Shown here piece by piece: positions 1 through 21,604 of a DNA stretch of 21,604 nucleotides. The stretch is from a virus, in IMG/VR virus record IMGVR_UViG_3300044993_000756, positions 1 to 21,604 of that record; one strand, written 5' to 3'. The position numbers and the translations under genes are program-made. The number at the start of each line of letters is the position of its first letter. The first letter of the stretch is position 1. The notes under the pieces are model-generated. The model saw only the letters and a list, made by a program, of their open reading frames with translations. It had not been told where the DNA came from and made no database searches.

Positions 1-756
1 TCAAAGCCCAAGCAGCTCGGCCGGCGTCAGGACGCGCCAGAGGTTCCGGATCTTCTTCTGGTCGAGCTCGAAATCCTGCTTCTCGCCGGGCGGAGGATTG
101 AACTGGCGCAGCACTACCTTGTCGGCGGTGCGGCGCAGAAGGCGCTTGATGTAGCACGGGCCCGATGCTTCCGGCGTGCTGCCGACCATCTCGACGATCA
201 CGTCGCAGCCCGGAGTCGGTGGGCGTGCCGGATTGACGAACACCAGGTCGCCCGACTCGAAGCGCGGCGACATCGAATCGCCATGCACATAGAGCGCGAA
301 GACCGAGCTTGCGCCGGCCAAGCCGGGTGGACGGCGCACCAGGTCCACGACATCGCCGTTGAAGGTGAAGTCGCCATCGGCCCCGCCAACCACCGTGCCG
401 CGCACCGGCACATCCCGCTTGAACGCGCCGATGCCGCGCACGGGCATTCCGGTCGCCAGGTCGACCTCCGCGCCGGCCGACGGAGCGGGCGGGAACGGCG
501 ATACGGGGGCCGACTCGCCGGCGCGCCCCTTGCGCTGCAGGCGCGGCTCGCCTTCGCCGGTGAACAGCCAGATCCAGTTGATGCCGAGCTTCTGCGCCAG
601 TTCGCGTGCAGCGCCTTCGGGCAGGTTGCGCGTGCCGTTCTCATAGGCGCGGTAGGTGACCTCAGAGATCGCAGCCGCGCGGGCAAAGCTGGCGGCATTC
701 GGATAGCCGGCAGCCTGCCGCGCCCAGCGCAGGCGCTGTGCCTTGGGATTCATCAT
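1..756 (-). CDS. CI-like phage repressor (HTH + S24 peptidase fold)
   Basis: A 251-aa, two-domain repressor that would hold the prophage silent by binding the divergent control region beside its start. Residues about 4-66 form an XRE-type helix-turn-helix (ARAAAISEVTYRAYENG, then LAQKLGINWIWLFTGEG). A Pro/Ala-rich linker covers about 75-115. Residues about 115-248 are a LexA/CI-type S24 domain. The nucleophile serine is S161 in HGDSMSPRF and the general-base lysine is K204 in CYIKRLL. The Ala-Gly or Cys-Gly bond normally cut in this family is not obvious: the matching stretch reads GTVVGGADGDF (about 120-130). Two ATG codons are adjacent at the start; the first is used here. The stop codon is the first three bases of the window. 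It is transcribed away from the late operon, as expected of a lysogeny repressor. The fold assignment is firm; its target and inducibility are inferred. Confidence 0.93.
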   Translation of the reverse strand: MMNPKAQRLRWARQAAGYPNAASFARAAAISEVTYRAYENGTRNLPEGAARELAQKLGINWIWLFTGEGEPRLQRKGRAGESAPVSPFPPAPSAGAEVDLATGMPVRGIGAFKRDVPVRGTVVGGADGDFTFNGDVVDLVRRPPGLAGASSVFALYVHGDSMSPRFESGDLVFVNPARPPTPGCDVIVEMVGSTPEASGPCYIKRLLRRTADKVVLRQFNPPPGEKQDFELDQKKIRNLWRVLTPAELLGL

Positions 757-2207: not shown

Positions 2208-3591
2208 CGTCGAAACGCTGGCCCGCACGCTGAACGCCTGGGGCGAGGACCCCCGCCTTTTCGTGCGCGAGGCACTGGGGGTGAAGCCCGAGCCGTGGCA
2301 GGACGAGGTACTGGCGGCGATCGCCGGTGGCCGGCGGCGCCTGGCCATCCGTTCCGGGCATGGGGTCGGCAAGACGGCGGTTGAAGCCTGGCTGATGCTG
2401 TGGTTCGGCATCACGCACGCCGATGCAAAGATACCCGCCACGGCGCCGACATCGCACCAGCTCGTCGACCTGTTGTGGGGCGAAGCGGCGAAATGGCATC
2501 GTGCGCTCGGCGAGCGCCTGCCCGCGATCGCCGACGCGATCGCGATCCGGGCCGATCGCATCGATTTCAGGCCATGGCGGAGCACCGCCTATGCGCGCAC
2601 CAGCCGGCGTGATCAACCCGAGGCGCTGCAAGGGTTTCACGCCGACAGCCTCCTTTTCCTGATCGACGAGGCATCGGGCGTCGACGACGCCGTCTTCGAA
2701 GTGGCGGAGGGGGCGATGTCGACGTCCGGTGCGCTGGTGGTGATGGCCGGAAATCCGACGCGTGGCGACGGCTATTTCCATCGTGCCTTCACGGCCGACC
2801 GCGCCCGCTGGTGGACGCGGCGTGTGCCTTGCGCGGAAAGCGGCCGGGTCACGGAAGACTATGTGGCCGGGATGGCGGCCTCCTACGGCGCCGACAGCAA
2901 CATTTATCGCGTAAGGGTCCTCGGCGAGTTTCCCCGCGCGGAGGACGACCGGGTGATTGCGCTCGATCTGGCCGAGTCGGCGGTGATGCGCGATGTCGAG
3001 CCCGTCGCGGACCGGGCACTGTGGGGCGTCGATGTGGCGCGCTACGGCGACGACGCCACGGCGTTGGCCAAGCGGGTGGCCAACACGGTGCCCGAGCCCG
3101 TGAAGACCTGGCGCGGCAAGGATACGATGCAGGTGGTCGGATTGATCCGCGAGGAGTGGGGCAAGGCCGGACCGGCAGGACGGCCTGCCGAGATTCTCAT
3201 CGACGCGATCGGCATCGGCGCGGGGGTCGCGGACCGACTGCGGGAAATGGGACTGCCGGCGCGCGCCATCAACGTGGCCGAGGCGCCGGCCGCACGGGAG
3301 CGCTATCTGCGCCTGCGGGACCAGCTGTGGTTCCAGGCGCGGGCATGGCTGGAGGCGCGCGATTGCCGGTTGCCCGCGGACGAAGCGCTGGTCGGCGAGC
3401 TGACTAGCCCGCGCTACACGGTGGAATCGTCCGGGAAGCTGCGTGTCGAGTCGAAAGCGGAGTTGAAGCGCCGCGGGCTGCGGTCGCCAGACCGAGCGGA
3501 TGCCTTCTGCTTGACCTTTGCCGGCAATGCGACCAACCGCCCGGGATGGTGGACGCCAAGCCGCGCGCTCGACACGGCTTACATCGTCTGA
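2200..3591 (+). CDS. terL: Phage terminase large subunit (ATPase-nuclease packaging motor)
   Basis: A 463-aa DNA-packaging motor that pumps phage DNA into the prohead and cuts it. The ATPase half carries an adenine-site-like PEPWQDEVL (29-38), Walker A SGHGVGKT (52-59) and Walker B LLFLIDE (151-157), with the catalytic Glu at 157. The coupling-type segment MAGNPTRGDGYF spans 182-193. The nuclease half has the RNase H-like acidic set: D278 in GVDVARYGDD, D335 in ILIDAIG, and D431/D434 in SPDRADAF. All key residues are present and the length is usual. The start overlaps the small subunit by 8 bases, pointing to translational coupling. It is followed by a 226-base gap with a terminator. The identification is secure; headful or cos cutting cannot be decided from this protein by eye. 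Confidence 0.95.
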   Translation: MDDVETLARTLNAWGEDPRLFVREALGVKPEPWQDEVLAAIAGGRRRLAIRSGHGVGKTAVEAWLMLWFGITHADAKIPATAPTSHQLVDLLWGEAAKWHRALGERLPAIADAIAIRADRIDFRPWRSTAYARTSRRDQPEALQGFHADSLLFLIDEASGVDDAVFEVAEGAMSTSGALVVMAGNPTRGDGYFHRAFTADRARWWTRRVPCAESGRVTEDYVAGMAASYGADSNIYRVRVLGEFPRAEDDRVIALDLAESAVMRDVEPVADRALWGVDVARYGDDATALAKRVANTVPEPVKTWRGKDTMQVVGLIREEWGKAGPAGRPAEILIDAIGIGAGVADRLREMGLPARAINVAEAPAARERYLRLRDQLWFQARAWLEARDCRLPADEALVGELTSPRYTVESSGKLRVESKAELKRRGLRSPDRADAFCLTFAGNATNRPGWWTPSRALDTAYIV

Positions 3592-3630
3592 AAGACGCCA
3601 CCAGGCGGGGGCGCCGGAAACATTATGCGG

Positions 3631-3677
3631 TATGCATATTGAGCGCAGGATGATCCTGTGCTAGGCTTTATTCCTAG
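3631..3677. repeat. Cluster of three short palindromes downstream of terL
   Basis: Three inverted repeats follow one another: TATGCATA (3631-3638, perfect), CAGGAT-G-ATCCTG (3646-3658, perfect 6-bp arms), and CTAGG-ctttatt-CCTAG (3661-3677, 5-bp arms). They precede the terminator at 3688. The segment is less GC-rich than its surroundings. They could be protein-binding sites, RNA processing hairpins or part of a packaging site. A weak TTGAGC/TAGGCT pair with 17-base spacing (3639-3667) is also present. Function is unknown. Confidence 0.45.
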
Positions 3678-4114: not shown

Positions 4115-6189
4115 AGGCAAAGACCGAAGCCGAGATCCGCGCCATCGTCGCGGGAAAGATCGAGCGCGCCCTGAGCTGGCAGGGATCGGCCCTTTCCCGC
4201 GATCGCGCCAAGGCGTTGCGCTATTACCGGGGAGAGAAGTTCGGCAACGAGGTCGACGGCCGATCGCAGATCGTGAGCCGCGATGTGGCCGAGGTCGTCG
4301 ACGGGATGCTGCCGGCGATCCTGCGTCCCTTCGTCAGTGGCGAGGAGGTCGTGCGCTTCGAACCCAAGGGTCCCGAGGATGAGCGGCTCGCCGACCAGGC
4401 AACGGACTATGCCAACTATGTCTGGGCGGTCGACAACCCGGGATTCCGCGTCTTCCACGACTGGATCAAGGATGGGCTGCTGGGGCGCGTCGGCGTCGTA
4501 AAGGTGTGGTGGGAGTCAGCGACCGAATCGGTGCGCGAGGACTATTCGGGGCTGACGGCCGACGAGGTAGGTTTCCTGCGCCTCGACCCGGCGGTCGAAA
4601 TGGTGGAGCAGGAGCGCGAGGAGAATGGGGCCGGCACGCCGCCCACCTATCGGGTGGCGTTGCGGCGCACGATCCAAGGCGGCCGCATCCTCGTGCGCAA
4701 TGTGCCGCCCGAGGAGTTCCTGACCGACGGCGAGCGCGTCTCCCTGGATGATAAGCCGTTTTGCGCCCATCGCTGCCGCCGCACGGTGTCGGACTTGGTG
4801 GCGATGGGCTATGACCGCACGAGGGTGATGGCGATTGCCGCCGGGGAGGGAGGGGCGCTCGATCGCGCTTGGGACCGCCAGGAACGGGCGCGGCCCGAGG
4901 GATCGCCGGCTGGCGGCGGGGATACGGCCGACGATTCGCAGCGCGAGCTGTGGGTGAGCGAATGCTACCTGCCGCTCGACGCCGACGGCGACGGGATCGC
5001 GGAGTACCGCAAGATCACCGTGGCCGGCGACCAGGCCGAACTGCTGCTGGAAGATCACGAGGTCGACGACCACCCCTTCGCGGCATGGTCGCCCTATCCG
5101 ATCCCGCACAAGTTCCACGGCGAGAGCGTGGCGGACAAGGTGATGGACGTGCAGCTCACCAAGTCCGCGATCCTCCGCCAGATGCTCGACAACCTGTACC
5201 TGGTCAACAACGCGCGCACCGAGATCGTCGAGGGCAAGGTCAACCTGGACGACTTCCTGTCATCGAAGCCCGGCGGCTACATCCGCGTGCGCGAGGCCGG
5301 GGCGATGCGCGAGATCGCCGTGCCGCCCGTCTTCCAGCACGCCTTTCCGGCGCTGGAGTACCTCGACACGGTGCGCGAGAACCGCAGCGGCGCGACGCGA
5401 TACAACCAGGGTCTGGACGCCGATTCGCTGAACAAGACGGCAAGCGGCATCAACGCCATCATGGGCGCGGCGGCGATGCGCGTCGAGCTGATCGCGCGCA
5501 TCTTCGCAGAGACAGGAGTCCGGCGCGCGTTCCGGCTGATCCTGCGCCTGCTGGTTCGACACCAAGACAAGGCGCGGGTGGTCAGGCTTCGTAACCAGTG
5601 GATCGCCGTCGACCCGCGCGCCTGGAACGCGGAGATGGACGTCGGCGTTTCGGTGGGGCTCGGCACGGGCAACCGCGACCAGCAGCTTGGCCATCTGTTG
5701 GCGATCTGGGACAAGCAGGTGCAGGCGATGCAGCTTCAGGGCGGTCCTGACGGTGCGCTGGTCTCGCTGCGCAATCTCTACGAGACCGCCTCGAAGATCG
5801 TCCACAATGCCGGCGTCAAGACGGCGCAGGGCTTCTTCAACGACCCCAGCCTTGTCCCGCCACCGCTCCCCGCGCCGCCGCCGGTCGATCCGGTGGCGAT
5901 GGAGGCGCAGGCGCGCGTGGCGCTGGAGAATCGCAAGCTGGACGCCGAGATCGCCTTGAAACTTCGCAAGCACGAGGACGAGATCGCGTTGAGGCGACTG
6001 GAGTTGGCGCTCAAGTTCGGCGCGCCGCCCATGGGCATGCCGGAGGGCATGACCCGCGGCCTGTCTCCTGGGGGGCTCGCGCGGGGCGTCCCGGACATGC
6101 CACCGGGCGCGAGCGCGGCCGCGGGGCCGGCGCCGGTCGTGCCTTCGGGCATGCCGGCGCCGGCCACCAGCCAACGAGGTGCAGCATGA
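4111..6189 (+). CDS. Portal protein, SU10/podovirus type
   Basis: A 692-aa portal subunit, the dodecameric ring at the head vertex through which DNA passes. The frame is open upstream to 3658, but the ATG at 4111 is chosen: it has GGAG six bases before it, makes an ATGA overlap with the previous gene, and is where family-like sequence begins (KAKTEAEIRAIVAGKIERAL). Typical features are SQIVSRDVAEVVDGMLPAIL and EEVVRFEPKGPEDERLADQA, then YANYVWAVDNPGF and GRVGVVKVWWE. A later block reads DNLYLVNNARTEI...DFLSSKPGGYIRVRE, and another has YNQGLDADSLNKTASGINAI. The region from about 590 is a charged helix (VALENRKLDAEIALKLRKHE). The last 70 residues are Met/Pro/Gly-rich and disordered. Length and motifs fit SU10-like portals. 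Confidence 0.92.
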   Translation: MKAKTEAEIRAIVAGKIERALSWQGSALSRDRAKALRYYRGEKFGNEVDGRSQIVSRDVAEVVDGMLPAILRPFVSGEEVVRFEPKGPEDERLADQATDYANYVWAVDNPGFRVFHDWIKDGLLGRVGVVKVWWESATESVREDYSGLTADEVGFLRLDPAVEMVEQEREENGAGTPPTYRVALRRTIQGGRILVRNVPPEEFLTDGERVSLDDKPFCAHRCRRTVSDLVAMGYDRTRVMAIAAGEGGALDRAWDRQERARPEGSPAGGGDTADDSQRELWVSECYLPLDADGDGIAEYRKITVAGDQAELLLEDHEVDDHPFAAWSPYPIPHKFHGESVADKVMDVQLTKSAILRQMLDNLYLVNNARTEIVEGKVNLDDFLSSKPGGYIRVREAGAMREIAVPPVFQHAFPALEYLDTVRENRSGATRYNQGLDADSLNKTASGINAIMGAAAMRVELIARIFAETGVRRAFRLILRLLVRHQDKARVVRLRNQWIAVDPRAWNAEMDVGVSVGLGTGNRDQQLGHLLAIWDKQVQAMQLQGGPDGALVSLRNLYETASKIVHNAGVKTAQGFFNDPSLVPPPLPAPPPVDPVAMEAQARVALENRKLDAEIALKLRKHEDEIALRRLELALKFGAPPMGMPEGMTRGLSPGGLARGVPDMPPGASAAAGPAPVVPSGMPAPATSQRGAA

Positions 6190-9395: not shown

Positions 9396-9719
9396 ATGAC
9401 GATTCGCCGCTTCGTCGAGATGACGCCAGACGGGATCGGCGAGGAGCTGATCTTCCACGGCGACGGCAGCTTCGCCATCCGCCGTTTCGAGGACGTCGAG
9501 CCTATCGTCGAGCGCAACAAGGCTCTGCAGAACCACGGCGACGGCTATTCGCGCTCCCGGGAGTGGCGGCGCGTGGCGTCGATTCCTGTGACCGTGCAGA
9601 TGCAGTGGATCAACAGGTACGGCGTCGATCCGCTGGCCAAGGGCAACGAGGCGCTGCTGAAGCGGCTGCTGAACGACCCCGAGTGGCGCCATCTGCGCAC
9701 GTCGCCGGGCAAGGTGTGA
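9396..9719 (+). CDS. Conserved phage structural-region protein
   Basis: A 107-aa protein with a two-part pattern. The first is an N-terminal strand segment, RRFVEMTPDGIGEELIFHGD. The second is a helical block with VERNKALQNHGDGYSRSREW and RRVASIPVTVQMQWINRYG, ending LLKRLLNDPEWRHLRTSPG. The RVASIP...W...YG and LNDPEWRHLRT elements recur in short proteins of podovirus-like genomes, next to the adaptor gene. Its function is not known to me; a head-completion or connector role fits its place between capsid and adaptor genes. A GGAGG lies about 20 bases upstream. It ends one base before the adaptor start. Confidence 0.75.
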   Translation: MTIRRFVEMTPDGIGEELIFHGDGSFAIRRFEDVEPIVERNKALQNHGDGYSRSREWRRVASIPVTVQMQWINRYGVDPLAKGNEALLKRLLNDPEWRHLRTSPGKV

Positions 9720-9720
9720 G

Positions 9721-10344
9721 ATGGCGATCGGTAACTACAACGACCTGCTGGTTGCCGCCGCGAACTGGCTGGCGCGCGACGACCTGAGCGCACGCATCCC
9801 CGAGTTCGTGACGCTGTTCGAGTCGGCCGCCAATCGCGAATTGCGCGTCCGCGACATGGAGCAGCGCGCCTACTGCACCACGGTCGGCGGCCAGCGCCTG
9901 TATTCGTGGCCGACCGACATGGTGGAGCTGCGATACATAAAGATCGACGGCACGCCGCCGACCGTCCTGCAGTACCTGAACCCGGAACAGTTCGAATCGC
10001 AGGATCCGCAGGTCAGCGGAACGCCGCGCTACTGGTCCGACATCCAGGCGGCGCTGTGCCTGTGGCCGACCCCGACCGACGGCCTGACCGTGCAGATCGA
10101 CTACTATCGCCGGCTCGATCTGGCCAATGCCGGCGAAAGCGGCAATTGGCTGATCCAGAAGCATCCCGACATCTATCTCTACGGCACGCTGATGCAGGCC
10201 GAGCCGTACCTGGCGAACGACGCCCGGCTGGAAACGTGGCGGTCGCTCCTGAACGCGGCTGGCGACCAGCTGCGCAACGCCGAATGGCGCAACAAGGCGG
10301 GCGTCACGCCCAGGCGGGTGATGACCGAATATCGAGGAGCCTGA
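9721..10344 (+). CDS. Head-tail adaptor protein, SU10/gp11-like
   Basis: A 207-aa protein expected to form the adaptor ring under the portal, joining head and tail nozzle. It carries the family's opening IGNYNDLLVAAANWLARDDL (2-21) and a helix with IPEFVTLFESAANRELRVRDME (about 25-46). A beta insertion follows, with GGQRLYSWPTDMVELRYIKI and RYWSDIQAALCLWPTPTDG. The C-terminal helices include KHPDIYLYGTLMQAEPYL, whose 'P.iylyg.l..a.p...' pattern is typical of SU10-like adaptors. The length is usual for the family. The same SU10 affinity is seen in the portal and capsid, which supports one coherent head module. Confidence 0.87.
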   Translation: MAIGNYNDLLVAAANWLARDDLSARIPEFVTLFESAANRELRVRDMEQRAYCTTVGGQRLYSWPTDMVELRYIKIDGTPPTVLQYLNPEQFESQDPQVSGTPRYWSDIQAALCLWPTPTDGLTVQIDYYRRLDLANAGESGNWLIQKHPDIYLYGTLMQAEPYLANDARLETWRSLLNAAGDQLRNAEWRNKAGVTPRRVMTEYRGA

Positions 10345-10347
10345 CCC

Positions 10348-10758
10348 ATGGCCATCCAACTGTCCACCGCCGTGCGCAACGCGCGGCTCGACGCCATCGA
10401 AACCACGGTCGGCACGTCGGCCATCGTCAAGATCAGGACCGGCTCGCCGCCGTCGAACTGCGCCGCCGCCGACAGCGGCACGGTTCTGGCCACGTTCAAC
10501 CTGGCGTCGGACTGGGCGGCGAACGCCTCCAGCGGCAGCAAGAGCTTCACCGGCACGCCGATCCAGGATTCGTCGGCCGACAACACCGGCACGGCCGGGC
10601 ATTTCCGGCTGTACGATTCGGCCGGCACGACCTGCCACATGCAGGGAACCGTGACGGCCACCGGCGGCGGCGGCGACATGGAAATCGACAATACCTCGAT
10701 CAACGCCGGCCAGACCGTGCAGATCACGTCCTGGACCCTGACCGACGGGAATGCCTGA
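10348..10758 (+). CDS. Conserved small virion protein
   Basis: A 136-aa protein of a widely shared phage type that I recognise by its opening AIQLSTAVRNARLDAIETTV followed by KIRTGSPPSNCAAADSGTVL. The rest is beta-rich, with Ser/Thr/Gly runs and a C-terminal NAGQTVQITSWTLTDGNA. It is probably a compact all-beta virion accessory, perhaps attached to the tail or capsid surface. No enzymatic motif is visible. It starts three bases after the adaptor stop, and its own stop overlaps the next start (TGATG), placing it in the coupled tail cassette. Confidence 0.78.
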   Translation: MAIQLSTAVRNARLDAIETTVGTSAIVKIRTGSPPSNCAAADSGTVLATFNLASDWAANASSGSKSFTGTPIQDSSADNTGTAGHFRLYDSAGTTCHMQGTVTATGGGGDMEIDNTSINAGQTVQITSWTLTDGNA

Positions 10759-11078
10759 TGGAGTGGGTCAGCGGGAACATATTCATCCGCCCGATGCGCT
10801 TCGCCCGCGCCGGCGAGGCGTGCCAGGGGCACGAGCACCGCTTCGACCATACCAGCATCGTCTTCAAGGGTGCGGTGCGCGTGAACGCCCGGCTCCCGGA
10901 CGGCCGCGAGATCGAGCGCAGCTTCAGTGCGCCGGCGCATTTCCTCGTGAAGAAGGACGTGTGGCACCGCATCGAGGCCACCGCCGACGACACCGAGGTG
11001 TGGTGCGTCTATGCGCATCGCACGCCGCAGGGCGACGTGGTGCAGGAATACACCGGTTGGGAAGGGGCCTACGGCTGA
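10758..11078 (+). CDS. Cupin-fold protein inside the tail cassette
   Basis: A 106-aa RmlC-like cupin. The frame is open far upstream, but the ATG at 10758 (TGATG overlap with the preceding stop) is the coupled start. The first cupin motif is complete in spacing: G19-x5-H25-x-H27-x3-H31-x6-G38, with His replacing the usual Glu. The second motif supplies H70 in KKDVWHRIEA. A four-histidine metal site (25, 27, 31, 70) is therefore likely. Cupins range from enzymes to sugar-binding and structural domains. In a tail cassette it could bind a metal for stability, trim or bind a surface sugar, or modify a virion protein. The fold is well supported; the function is open. Confidence 0.82.
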   Translation: MEWVSGNIFIRPMRFARAGEACQGHEHRFDHTSIVFKGAVRVNARLPDGREIERSFSAPAHFLVKKDVWHRIEATADDTEVWCVYAHRTPQGDVVQEYTGWEGAYG

Positions 11079-11509
11079 TGGCGCGCATCGTCGTGTGGGC
11101 CAAGCCGGATAACGATTGCGCAGACCCGGTGCGGAACGCACGGAAGTACAAGCGCGGGATGGTGGTCGAGGTGCGCGAGGACGGCGAGTTCCTGGGTCAC
11201 GACGTGGAGAACGGCGCCTGGTGGCGCGTGGTCGAGGCGCCCGGCCCGGCGGCCGACTACGCATACCTGCTGGAGGCCGACCCGAAGTTCCTGAACGAGA
11301 AGCTGTTCCTGTCGGAGGCTACCTACCCGCGCAAGCGCAAGGTGGCGCTGGATCTGGACGCCATCGAGGCGGCGGCCGGGCTGGCGCCGCTCGAACAGCC
11401 GGACCGGGCCGTCCCGCTGGCTTCCGGCGCGGCCGTGGCGGCCGCCGAAGTCGCCGTCGTGCCGCTGGAGAACGCGAATGTCGTTGCCCCGACGGAGGTG
11501 ATCGGCTGA
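11078..11509 (+). CDS. Small hypothetical protein, tail cassette
   Basis: A 143-aa protein I do not recognise by name. The start is the ATG in a TGATG overlap with the cupin stop; the upstream open frame is a shadow. The first 80 residues seem folded (ARIVVWAKPDNDCADPVRNA, then RGMVVEVREDGEFLG and WWRVVEAPGP), like a small beta domain. The second half is Ala/Val-rich and looks disordered (ASGAAVAAAEVAVVPLENAN). It lies between the cupin and the beta-helix protein, all joined by one-base overlaps, so it is probably a virion or assembly component made in step with them. Confidence 0.7.
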   Translation: MARIVVWAKPDNDCADPVRNARKYKRGMVVEVREDGEFLGHDVENGAWWRVVEAPGPAADYAYLLEADPKFLNEKLFLSEATYPRKRKVALDLDAIEAAAGLAPLEQPDRAVPLASGAAVAAAEVAVVPLENANVVAPTEVIG

Positions 11510-12510
11510 TGGCAACGAAATCCATCGGCACCGGCTCGCGGGACTACACGTCCTTCGCGTCCTATGCGTCCTACCTGGACGGGCTGGACACGCTGAGCGA
11601 GCCGGAAATCGGGGAGTGCTATAACGACGGCGAGATGACGGTCTCGTCCGTCGTGACGTTCACCGGCTTCACGACCTCGGCGACGAACACCGTGACGATC
11701 CGGCCGGCCAGCGGCCATGCGTTCTACGATCACGCCGACAAGGCGACCAATCCGCTGCGCTACGACCAGTCGAAGGGGTTCGGGATAAACTGCACGAGCA
11801 GTTTCGACCACTGCTTCGTTTTCCAGGCCGATCACATGAAAATCATCGGCCTGCAGATACGGGTGAGCTCCTCCTCCGGCAAGGCCGCCCTGGCCATGGG
11901 AACAGCGACGTATTCCGGCACGCTGTACGAGCGCTGCATACTCGAGAACAGCTCCGGCGGAAACGATCTGGGGGCATATGTCGGCTTGGCGGCCCTGCGG
12001 GCGGGAACGGCGGACAGGCTGGTCGTCATTCTCCGCAGCAACGGGTCCGGCATGTCGTTCGACTACCCCGGAACCGTGAACGTGAAGAACTGCACGGTTG
12101 TGACCGTCTCGGGCGTGTCGTCCACGCGGGCGGTGTTCCGCAAGGAGAGCGGCGGCACGGTCACGCTGACCGGCTGCGCCGGGTTCGGGTTCAACAGCTT
12201 CAACATCGGCACGTTCGCGGCCGGCAGCTCGCACAACGGGTCGGACCTGACCATCGGGTTCGGCTCCAGCAACCAGCAGTCGCTGACCTACGCGGACCAG
12301 TTCGAGTCGAACGCGGATTCGACGCGGGATTTCCGGCTCAAGTCCGGCGCCGCGCTGATCGACGCTGGCACGGGCAGCGACCCAGACATCGTCGGGCAGT
12401 CCGTGTCCGGATCGGCGCGGGACATCGGCGCGTGGGAATTCCAGTCCGCGGCCGGCGGACCGTTCCCGCCCTTCTTTCGCTTCGAGCCGTCCACGCATTT
12501 GAGGATGTGA
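11509..12510 (+). CDS. Right-handed beta-helix tail fibre/spike-like protein
   Basis: A 333-aa protein starting at a TGATG overlap. The N-terminus SIGTGSRDYTSFASYASYLD resembles the opening of phage proteins that wrap a pectate-lyase-like beta-helix. Residues about 45-260 show short alternating strand segments (VVTFTGFTTSATNTVTIRPA, HMKIIGLQIRV, TLYERCILENSSGG, TVNVKNCTVVTVSG, TVTLTGCAGFGF), the rung pattern of a beta-helix. The end, DFRLKSGAALIDAGTGSD then ARDIGAWEF, is a motif seen at the C-terminus of such helices. It is probably a receptor-binding or glycan-cleaving spike. No catalytic acid pair can be assigned by eye. Confidence 0.82.
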   Translation: MATKSIGTGSRDYTSFASYASYLDGLDTLSEPEIGECYNDGEMTVSSVVTFTGFTTSATNTVTIRPASGHAFYDHADKATNPLRYDQSKGFGINCTSSFDHCFVFQADHMKIIGLQIRVSSSSGKAALAMGTATYSGTLYERCILENSSGGNDLGAYVGLAALRAGTADRLVVILRSNGSGMSFDYPGTVNVKNCTVVTVSGVSSTRAVFRKESGGTVTLTGCAGFGFNSFNIGTFAAGSSHNGSDLTIGFGSSNQQSLTYADQFESNADSTRDFRLKSGAALIDAGTGSDPDIVGQSVSGSARDIGAWEFQSAAGGPFPPFFRFEPSTHLRM

Positions 12511-12513
12511 CCC

Positions 12514-12978
12514 ATGGCCGAAGGTTATGTCTACGAGGTCCGCAACGGCGGCGTGTCGATATCGACCGCCATCACCGTGATCCAGATCAAGGCCGGGGCG
12601 AGCGCGCTGGAAATCCTCCGCGCATCGATCGGCCAGCGTGGGTCGACCACATCGACCATCGAGCGCATCGGCATCGTGCGCAAATCGGCGGCGGCCACGG
12701 TGACCAGCGCCACGCCGCTGAAGCTGAACCCCGGCGACCCGGCGTCGCTGGCGGTCGGCGGCACCACCGCCACCGGCATCACCGCCACCGCCGAGGGCAC
12801 GGACGGCGACATCCTGGTCGACGAGTGCTTCAACATCGTCAACGGCACGTGGACCTGGCTGCCCACGCCCGAGGAACGCATCCGCGTGCCGCAGGGCGGC
12901 ATCGTCGGGCTGAAGTTCCTGACCGCGCCTGGCGCGCAGACCTGGTACGCCAGCGTGAAGTTCCGCGAGATGCAGTAG
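12514..12978 (+). CDS. Beta-rich small virion protein
   Basis: A 154-aa protein starting three bases after the beta-helix gene. It opens AEGYVYEVRNGGVSISTAIT then VIQIKAGASALEILRASIGQ. It continues with Thr/Ala/Gly-rich strands and ends IVGLKFLTAPGAQTWYASVK. The 'TLIQIKAGA...LEILRA.ia' pattern recurs in small structural proteins of temperate phages and probably forms a jelly-roll-like fold. It could be a fibre head or capsid-surface protein. No catalytic motif is visible. The coupling to neighbouring tail genes supports a virion role. Confidence 0.74.
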   Translation: MAEGYVYEVRNGGVSISTAITVIQIKAGASALEILRASIGQRGSTTSTIERIGIVRKSAAATVTSATPLKLNPGDPASLAVGGTTATGITATAEGTDGDILVDECFNIVNGTWTWLPTPEERIRVPQGGIVGLKFLTAPGAQTWYASVKFREMQ

Positions 12979-12998
12979 CCGGCGGCAGCGGGTAGACG

Positions 12999-13556
12999 AT
13001 GGGCGGTGTCTATCGGACGACGAGCCCGGCGTATTGCCTGCCGCGGCCTTCACGGATTGCGCCCCTCGCCTCGGCGAGTAGCCGGTCGTGCTCCGTCTCG
13101 GCTGTCCTGGGTGCGGCTTTGGGGGCCAGCTCGGTCGGAGTCGTTGTCAAGGCGAGTGCGGCCGTACCGCTGGGCGTTCTCAGCGCAGCGGGCTCGGTAC
13201 GAGTCGTCGCAAAAGCCACCGCGGCCGTACCATTGGCCGCCCTGACCGGGACGGCGTTCGCGACCGGCACCGGAACCCGGAACATCGCGGCATCGTTCGC
13301 GCTGGCTGCGCTGGCGTGCTCGGCGCGTGCAGCAACAGCGGTATGGACGCAATGGACGCCAGTGCCGGTGCTTGTCTGCCCCGGCGCCATCTGGGATGGC
13401 GGTGCGAGCGTATGGGATGGAGGCATCGACATGGATGACAATGACGGCGCGATCTGGGATCCAACCTCGCCGTTCGTCGCGCCGACGGCACCGTTGGTTG
13501 CAGGCTGGACCGCGACGGCCGCACCGCCGACGGGCTGGGCCATGGTGCTGCGATGA
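12999..13556 (+). CDS. Ala/Val-rich repeat protein with WDGG motifs
   Basis: A 185-aa protein I do not recognise as a named family. Two 21-residue repeats stand out: VVVKASAAVPLGVL at 48-61 and VVAKATAAVPLAAL at 69-82, with a degenerate third (NIAASFALAAL, 95-105) and perhaps a fourth at 34-46. Such repeats would stack as short beta strands, giving a fibrous segment. A second part has AIWDGGASVWDGG (130-142) and later GAIWD (150-154), then a Pro/Ala/Thr-rich end. Its stop overlaps the fibre gene start (ATGA at 13553), so it probably forms part of the same fibre assembly. The reading is supported by the coupling and by the protein-level repeats. Confidence 0.65.
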   Translation: MGGVYRTTSPAYCLPRPSRIAPLASASSRSCSVSAVLGAALGASSVGVVVKASAAVPLGVLSAAGSVRVVAKATAAVPLAALTGTAFATGTGTRNIAASFALAALACSARAATAVWTQWTPVPVLVCPGAIWDGGASVWDGGIDMDDNDGAIWDPTSPFVAPTAPLVAGWTATAAPPTGWAMVLR

Positions 13557-20180: not shown

Positions 20181-20198
20181 CAACAGACGAGGATGCCG

Positions 20199-20891
20199 AT
20201 GCTCGATCTCTATGCGTGGCCGACGCCCAATGCCTACAAGGTCTCGATCATGCTGGAAGAGATCGGCCGAGCCTACCGCGTCATCCCCGTCGATATCCAA
20301 CGCGGCGACCAGTTCAAGGCCGAGTTCCTGAAGATAAGCCCCAACAACAAGATGCCGGCGATCGTCGATCACGACGCGCCGGACGGCAAGCCGCTGGCGA
20401 TGTTCGAGTCGGGCGCCATCCTGATGTACCTGGCGGAAACCAGCGGCAAGTTTATGCCGAAGGACTTGCGCGGACGCTACCAGGTGATCCAGTGGCTGAT
20501 GTTCCAGATGGGCGGTATCGGCCCGATGCTCGGTCAGGCGCATCACTTCCGTCAGTATGCGCCGGAAAAGATCGACTACGCGATTAACCGCTACACCAAA
20601 GAGGCGACGCGGCTCTATCGCGTGGTCGACAAACGGCTGGGCGAGGCGGAGTACCTGGCCGGTGCCTATTCGATCGCCGACATGGCGGTCTTTCCGTGGC
20701 TGCGGTCGTGGGAACGGCAGGGGCAGAATCTTGACGACCATCCGAACCTGAAGCGCTGGTTCGAGGCCATCAACGCGCGCCCCGCGGTCAAGAAGGGATT
20801 GGAGCTTCTGGCCGACAAGCGCCGCACCGGCCCGATCGATGACAAGGCCAGAGAGATACTGTTCGGCGCCATCCAATACGCGCAGCGCTAG
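20199..20891 (+). CDS. Glutathione S-transferase, Nu-class/YfcG-like
   Basis: A 230-aa cytosolic enzyme that uses glutathione, likely as a GSH-dependent disulfide oxidoreductase or transferase. The thioredoxin-like N-domain opens LDLYAWPTPNAYKVSIMLEE, with T9 and N11 in the places used by E. coli YfcG for glutathione. It also has NNKMPAIVDHDAPDG with the cis-Pro loop, and FESGAILMYLAE, the usual glutathione-carboxylate motif. The helical C-domain includes EYLAGAYSIADMAVFPWLR, the conserved N-capping segment. An in-frame ATG lies six bases upstream at 20193. ATG 20199 is preferred for its GAGG at 20189-20192 and because it gives the family's normal start. It is probably a chromosomal gene flanking the prophage. 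Confidence 0.88.
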   Translation: MLDLYAWPTPNAYKVSIMLEEIGRAYRVIPVDIQRGDQFKAEFLKISPNNKMPAIVDHDAPDGKPLAMFESGAILMYLAETSGKFMPKDLRGRYQVIQWLMFQMGGIGPMLGQAHHFRQYAPEKIDYAINRYTKEATRLYRVVDKRLGEAEYLAGAYSIADMAVFPWLRSWERQGQNLDDHPNLKRWFEAINARPAVKKGLELLADKRRTGPIDDKAREILFGAIQYAQR

Positions 20892-20899
20892 TGCGGGCC

Positions 20900-21604
20900 A
20901 TGGCCGATCTCCCGGTCGCGTTGGTTGTCGGAGCTGGGCCCGGGTTGGGAATGGCCCTGGCGCTCCGGTTTGCTGCCGGCGGACATAGCGTGGCGATTGC
21001 CGCTCGCGCCAAGGAAAGGCTCGACCGGCTGGCGATGGGCGACGCCAGGATTCGGACCTATGCCTGCGATGCTGCCGACGCGGCGGACGTGGCGAAACTG
21101 TTCGATCACGTCGGCCGCGACCTCGCCGATCCGTCCGTGGTCGTCTACAACGCCAGCGCGATGCTGCGCGGATCGGTGCTGGACCTCGACCCCGCCGCGG
21201 TCGAGGGGGCTTGGCGCGTGGCCTGCCTGGGCGGCCTTCATGTCGGCCAGCAGGCAGCGCGCCGCATGGTCCGTGCCGGACGCGGCACGATCCTGTTCAC
21301 CGGCGCGACGGCCAGTCTGCGCGGCGGCACCGGCTTCGCCGGGTTCGCCGTGGGCAAGTTCGGGCTGCGCGCACTGGCACAGAGTATGGCGCGCGAGCTG
21401 GGGGCGCGCGGCATTCATGTCGCGCATGTCATCGTCGATGGGCACATAGCCTCCGAACGCCATCGGGACTACCAGGAGACGAACGGCGCCGACTCCGCCC
21501 TCGATCCCGCAGCGATCGCCGAGGCCTACTGGCAGCTCCACCGCCAGCCACGCAGCGCCTGGACCCACGAGCTCGACCTGCGGCCCTGGGTCGAGAAGTT
21601 CTGA
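20900..21604 (+). CDS. Atypical short-chain dehydrogenase/reductase
   Basis: A 234-aa SDR-fold protein. The Rossmann start ALVVGAGPGLGMALALRF carries the glycine motif for NAD(P) binding, ACDAADAADV supplies the second acidic site, and VYNASA (82-87) is the NNAG equivalent. In the active-site region, ILFTGATASLRGGTGFAGFA followed by VGK, the usual Ser is Ala (about A136) and the catalytic Tyr is Phe (F149). K153 is kept. It may not act as a classical reductase. The ATG at 20900 is chosen over a GTG at 20891 that overlaps the GST stop. The two genes are nine bases apart and probably one operon. The protein ends with the last base of the window. Confidence 0.85.
   Translation: MADLPVALVVGAGPGLGMALALRFAAGGHSVAIAARAKERLDRLAMGDARIRTYACDAADAADVAKLFDHVGRDLADPSVVVYNASAMLRGSVLDLDPAAVEGAWRVACLGGLHVGQQAARRMVRAGRGTILFTGATASLRGGTGFAGFAVGKFGLRALAQSMARELGARGIHVAHVIVDGHIASERHRDYQETNGADSALDPAAIAEAYWQLHRQPRSAWTHELDLRPWVEKF

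Follow-up and report, generated by a model that had tools for sequence, protein, structure and literature searches.

The first motif of cupins has the consensus G(X)5HXH(X)3,4E(X)6G, and both four-histidine cupins such as TM1459 and cupin-like proteins of phages are already known. TM1459 of Thermotoga maritima (PDB 1vj2, 5wsd), the best-ranked counterpart of the phage cupin described here, binds Mn through H52, H54, H58 and H92, and its Cys106 lines the cavity (PMC5031596). The two proteins are alike in being small single-domain cupins with the same order and spacing of the four histidines (HxHx3H...H), a His at the Glu position of motif 1 and a cavity Cys; TM1459 differs in being bacterial, in its identity of about 19% to the phage protein (Foldseek alignment) and in having no phage context. 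Two further small single-domain cupins that match by profile, KdgF of pectin degradation and the cellulose oxidative cupin 9bwf, act on glycans and differ from the phage family, which has four His ligands. On the phage side, host-recognition modules of a fibre and a chaperone are common to unrelated Alteromonas phages of podo-, myo- and siphoviral shapes (PMC10579305). There, as in the loci analysed here, a small partner gene travels with the receptor-binding protein across unrelated tail types; in those modules the partner is a chaperone, and a cupin is not mentioned in the text. In our search of open-access papers we came across no account of a cupin subfamily that is specific to phages, keeps its metal site and is tied to host-recognition or tail cassettes.

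The window analysed here is the whole 21,604-base IMG/VR virus entry IMGVR_UViG_3300044993_000756, and it encodes such a cupin, P0001, between genes for virion and spike-like proteins:

9721-10344, plus strand: SU10-type adaptor (head-tail connector) gene (PF24175, E=4.8e-32).
10348-10758, plus strand: 136-aa virion structural gene directly upstream of the cupin (phrog_3758 'virion structural protein', E=3.7e-35), with a TGATG overlap with the cupin start.
10758-11078, plus strand: cupin gene P0001, 106 aa, ATG to TGA, supported by the open reading frame and its translation, the AlphaFold model, and Foldseek and profile matches to cupins.
10830-10850, plus strand: putative metal-site codons of motif 1, H25 (10830-10832), H27 (10836-10838) and H31 (10848-10850), kept in 74/74 rows and aligning with H52/H54/H58 of TM1459.
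10965-10967, plus strand: codon of H70, fourth putative metal ligand (motif 2), kept in 74/74 rows and corresponding to H92 of TM1459.
11004-11006, plus strand: codon of Cys83, likely equivalent of the cavity-lining Cys106 of TM1459 by profile alignment, kept in 74/74 rows.
11078-11509, plus strand: F143 gene, 143 aa, with the core GDVIVVxPDGWxWGxxE; TGATG overlap with the cupin, which it adjoins in most module loci.
11509-12510, plus strand: beta-helix (choice-of-anchor Q-like) gene, 333 aa, a putative spike or fibre (NCBIfam choice_anch_Q, E=1.6e-4, below cut-off); TGATG overlap with F143.
12514-12978, plus strand: 154-aa gene after the beta-helix gene, the fourth cassette gene in loci L005 and L101 (phmmer E=3e-88 and 4e-31, respectively).

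A first-pass annotation, made from the sequence alone, had proposed a cupin with an exact motif 1 in which His takes the place of Glu, and with a fourth His in motif 2. Both features held: motif 1 reads G19-x5-H25-x-H27-x3-H31-x6-G38, the usual Glu position is taken by His, and the fourth His is H70, which is present although the classical PxG of motif 2 is not retained. The six-frame translation of the window contains the motif a single time, where a codon-shuffled window is expected to yield 0.015, and only 8/200,000 residue shuffles of P0001 produced it, so that we rejected a chance motif. The proposed fold was also recovered. The AlphaFold model (alignment of 63 relatives) is an all-beta barrel with a pLDDT of 90.7 and a pTM of 0.79, and a Foldseek search of the PDB gave 109 matches at E<=0.001, the top ones being cupins; matches of the model include Ni-quercetinase, oxalate decarboxylase, KdgF (E=1.4e-4) and TM1459. 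Foldseek also retrieves proteins of uncultured Caudovirales phages, some of them named cupin. With the profile of the family alignment, TM1459 ranks first (E=6e-4), followed by KdgF (E=7e-4) and 9bwf (E=3e-3). In Pfam, P0001 has nothing above the gathering cut-off, the best match being DUF1971 (E=0.044, below cut-off); Cupin_2 is reached by 30/63 relatives at E<=0.1, with a best value of 3.7e-5. The missing match reflects the limited sensitivity of the Pfam model; such a match is no structural hallmark of the superfamily. By the spacing of motif 1, the His of motif 2 and its predicted beta-barrel, P0001 is thus a cupin.

Scans of viral contigs for relatives returned 7 with the single sequence and 83 with the alignment. 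Eight positions are invariant in the 63 aligned rows (H25, H27, F29, D30, H31, G38, H70 and C83), and in the final alignment HHHHC at positions 25/27/31/70/83 is found in 74/74 rows. Because the pattern HxHxFDH served to retrieve most members, the conservation of H25 to H31 is partly built in; H70, C83 and G38 are free of that bias. Furthermore, the four His and the Cys are all retained in six cupins that were reached through the neighbouring gene F143 and not by the cupin pattern, among them the divergent one of L127. The invariant Cys83 had been missed in the first-pass annotation. As judged from the alignments, the phage cupin has the putative TM1459-like site of four His ligands and a cavity Cys; unlike TM1459, the phage family also has Asp30 as an invariant residue and Gly6-Asn7 and Arg88 as near-invariant ones. 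Two cupin genes are present on some contigs: L037/L038 have them in tandem (L037:4591-5342), and in L048 about 4 kb separates them (236-610 and 4903-5250).

The placement of the gene in a tail cassette with virion genes, as first annotated, is confirmed by its neighbours, with the SU10-adaptor-like and phrog_3758 genes upstream and fibre, structural and ejection genes farther downstream in the window. TGATG stop/start overlaps join the 136-aa virion gene to the cupin (10756-10760), the cupin to F143 (11076-11080) and F143 to the beta-helix gene (11507-11511), and three successive junctions of this kind make coupled translation plausible. No sigma-70-like promoter was found within 9600-13000 of the window. 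By eye, the left end of the window (1-756, minus strand) carries a CI/LexA-like repressor gene and the right end (20193-21604, plus strand) glutathione transferase-like and short-chain dehydrogenase-like genes, which suggests a prophage with host flank.

The cassette has another uncharacterised component in F143, which adjoins or is fused with beta-helix proteins. F143 has no family match in Pfam, PHROG or NCBIfam; its model (pLDDT 84.5) has no fold match in the PDB, where a profile search gave Protein A-like chance matches only. A pattern scan, run with a six-sequence subset since the full F143 alignment is too divergent, returned 44 loci, 34 of them distinct. In 25 of these 34 the start of a beta-helix gene is no more than 20 nt from F143, or the two are fused, in frame in L115 (3911-5509) and L137 (3947-5488). 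F143 thus belongs with the beta-helix, as its head or partner domain. By eye, the F143 fusions of L115, L133 and L135 open with signal-peptide-like stretches. A cupin lies close by in 14 of the 34 loci and is missing from the flanking sequence analysed in 20, a count in which short contigs may hide some. These pairs of F143 and beta-helix without a cupin make the cupin an accessory, optional third member.

Whether the cupin always lies beside the 143-aa and beta-helix genes was a question raised at the outset. The neighbourhood does recur, but the association is far from general: among 55 distinct cupin loci, F143 is present in 14 and a beta-helix gene in 13, so that about 15 have at least one of the two, and nearly all of these fall in a single clade. 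Most of the others adjoin other fibre types, such as Gly-rich/GP38-like, collar and collagen-like genes. Where the module is present, the rest of the phage may be unrelated. The window and L005 have the cupin, F143, the beta-helix gene and the 154-aa gene in common, and none of the head genes tested match; in L101 the 154-aa gene matches that of the window and the head genes do not; and in L006-L008, L016, L018 and others the cassette is all that is common with the window in the stretch compared. A cupin tree, built on few columns and with some long branches, places the module in 23/29 rows of one supported clade (99/97). The module also occurs outside that clade, in L075/L077 and L127, and by the starred branches the cupin-F143-beta-helix association must have changed at least three times, losses possibly included. 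The six clade rows without the module include L034-L036 and L044, and several of them have fibre-like neighbours; the cupin at L036:3181-3534 has a collagen-like (GPQGPPG) fibre gene immediately on each side. On the other branch of the tree the cupins adjoin Gly-rich, GP38-like and collar fibre genes. In cultured phages, tblastn with six cupin queries, F143 and beta-helix queries gave nothing or weak matches only.

Several other genes were seen near the cupins. Asp/Asn hydroxylase-like genes were noticed by eye directly beside the cupin on three phage-like contigs (L093:2230-2760, L094:1997-2575 and L143:1855-2445), and the corresponding Pfam family was detected for two neighbours in other loci; such a neighbour may represent a further barrel oxygenase of the cassette. 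In L008, a class II aldolase gene (2839-3654; PF00596, E=1.1e-38) precedes the cupin by a few genes, within a fibre region of the phage.

In cellular genomes the family is nearly absent. In a pattern scan of 84,980 species genomes two cupin relatives turned up, each on a phage-like contig; a third match, from a class sample of 385 genomes, likewise lies by phage-like genes. One relative, on a Chitinophagaceae MAG contig (L094; G002:C342:7055-7351), has one TAG in the cupin frame and may be a pseudogene or a case of stop-codon reassignment. The first-pass annotation had considered that homologues might turn out to be mostly host metabolic enzymes; the near absence from bacterial genomes instead argues that the family is not a captured host enzyme, and we rejected that origin.

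We tentatively favour, at a little short of an even chance, a late-expressed, metal-dependent, phage-specific cupin, probably enzymatic, that belongs to the host-recognition (fibre or spike) cassette and moves with it. The computed support for this reading consists of the cupin fold, the invariant four-His and Cys site, the overlap with virion genes, the recurrent neighbourhood with several fibre types and the near absence from cellular genomes. In such a protein H25, H27, H31 and H70, at the base of the small beta-barrel, would most likely bind a single ion of Mn, Fe or Ni, and Cys83 would line the pocket, as in TM1459. It would most likely act as an enzyme on a small group, for instance a host-surface sugar or carboxylate or one of the fibre's own residues, would support attachment rather than form a fixed tail joint, and would move between phages together with the fibre or spike cassette. 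Three points argue against an enzyme: a metal held by the invariant His may have a structural function, the annotations of some relatives name a structural or tail fibre protein, and nothing beyond the His and Cys indicates a particular reaction. The stronger proposal of a dedicated class of phage metal-dependent cupin enzymes in host-recognition cassettes, chemically modifying host-surface glycans or the fibre, is doubtful, and we know of no such metal-dependent modifying chemistry in phage receptor-binding machinery.

The structural or surface-active role first suggested for the protein is partly supported. The cupin could be an adhesin or structural subunit of the virion, sitting on the tail with the F143-beta-helix spike, where a metal would stabilise it or bind host glycan without catalysis. 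The gene lies between virion genes with overlapping start and stop codons and, in its relatives, adjoins gp38-like adhesins and collagen-like fibres; P0001 also matches phrog_12032 'short tail fiber protein' (E=4.9e-5), as do 35/63 members of the family. This PHROG contains gp38 of Shewanella phage X14 and gp34 of Alteromonas phage R8W, both profile relatives of the phage cupin (X14 gp38 at 94% in hhalign), and X14 gp38 is placed in the structural gene module of its phage. However, these two proteins are longer and read RHHRT and EHQRT at the positions of HHHHC, so that they have lost the metal site that the phage cupin family never loses. Furthermore, the relative in Xanthomonas phage Elanor (L089:6976-7341) keeps HHHHC and bears the annotation 'short tail fiber adhesin' but is surrounded by replication genes, which makes the label unreliable; on these grounds we rejected a literal 'short tail fiber' reading. 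As beta-helix, Gly-rich and collagen-like fibres are all accompanied by the cupin, it is not a joint fitted to one fibre, and its absence from many F143-beta-helix pairs also counts against a subunit of that spike. Taken together, the invariant site, the several fibre types and the pairs without a cupin fit metal chemistry better than a structural joint. A non-catalytic virion subunit therefore appears somewhat unlikely to us, and we prefer a metal-dependent accessory, most likely catalytic, to a plain structural part, because the site is invariant in the family and lost in two relatives of structural type, because unlike fibres are served and because the F143-beta-helix pairs also occur alone.

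A small gene that adjoins fibre genes in unrelated phages also recalls the travelling tail-fibre chaperones (PMC10579305), and Phage_tail_APC and Peptidase_S74 domains are present among the cupin neighbours. A chaperone or cap that assembles the fibre or spike and is left out of the final virion is nevertheless improbable, since F143 often accompanies a beta-helix gene where there is no cupin. To our knowledge, no fibre chaperone is a metal-site cupin. Most of the cupin superfamily is metabolic, and hydroxylase-like genes adjoin the cupin in three loci, with an aldolase gene near it in another. These points speak for an auxiliary metabolic or host-derived enzyme inserted by chance, but such an enzyme is very improbable given the conserved position beside fibre genes and the contrast between 83 relatives in the viral scan and the three matches in cellular genomes.

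We believe that cupins in viral metagenomes could easily be mistaken for metabolic extras or, via PHROG labels, for short tail fibres. Neither label is a good fit for the subfamily described here: its members are phage-specific, never lack the metal site and follow unlike host-recognition cassettes between phages. The invariant site, together with the position of the members beside fibre and spike genes of phages that are otherwise unrelated, suggests that the cupin is a metal-dependent helper in host recognition. Should it prove to be an enzyme, a metal-dependent chemistry would be added to phage attachment, and this could be tested with a single 12-kDa protein.
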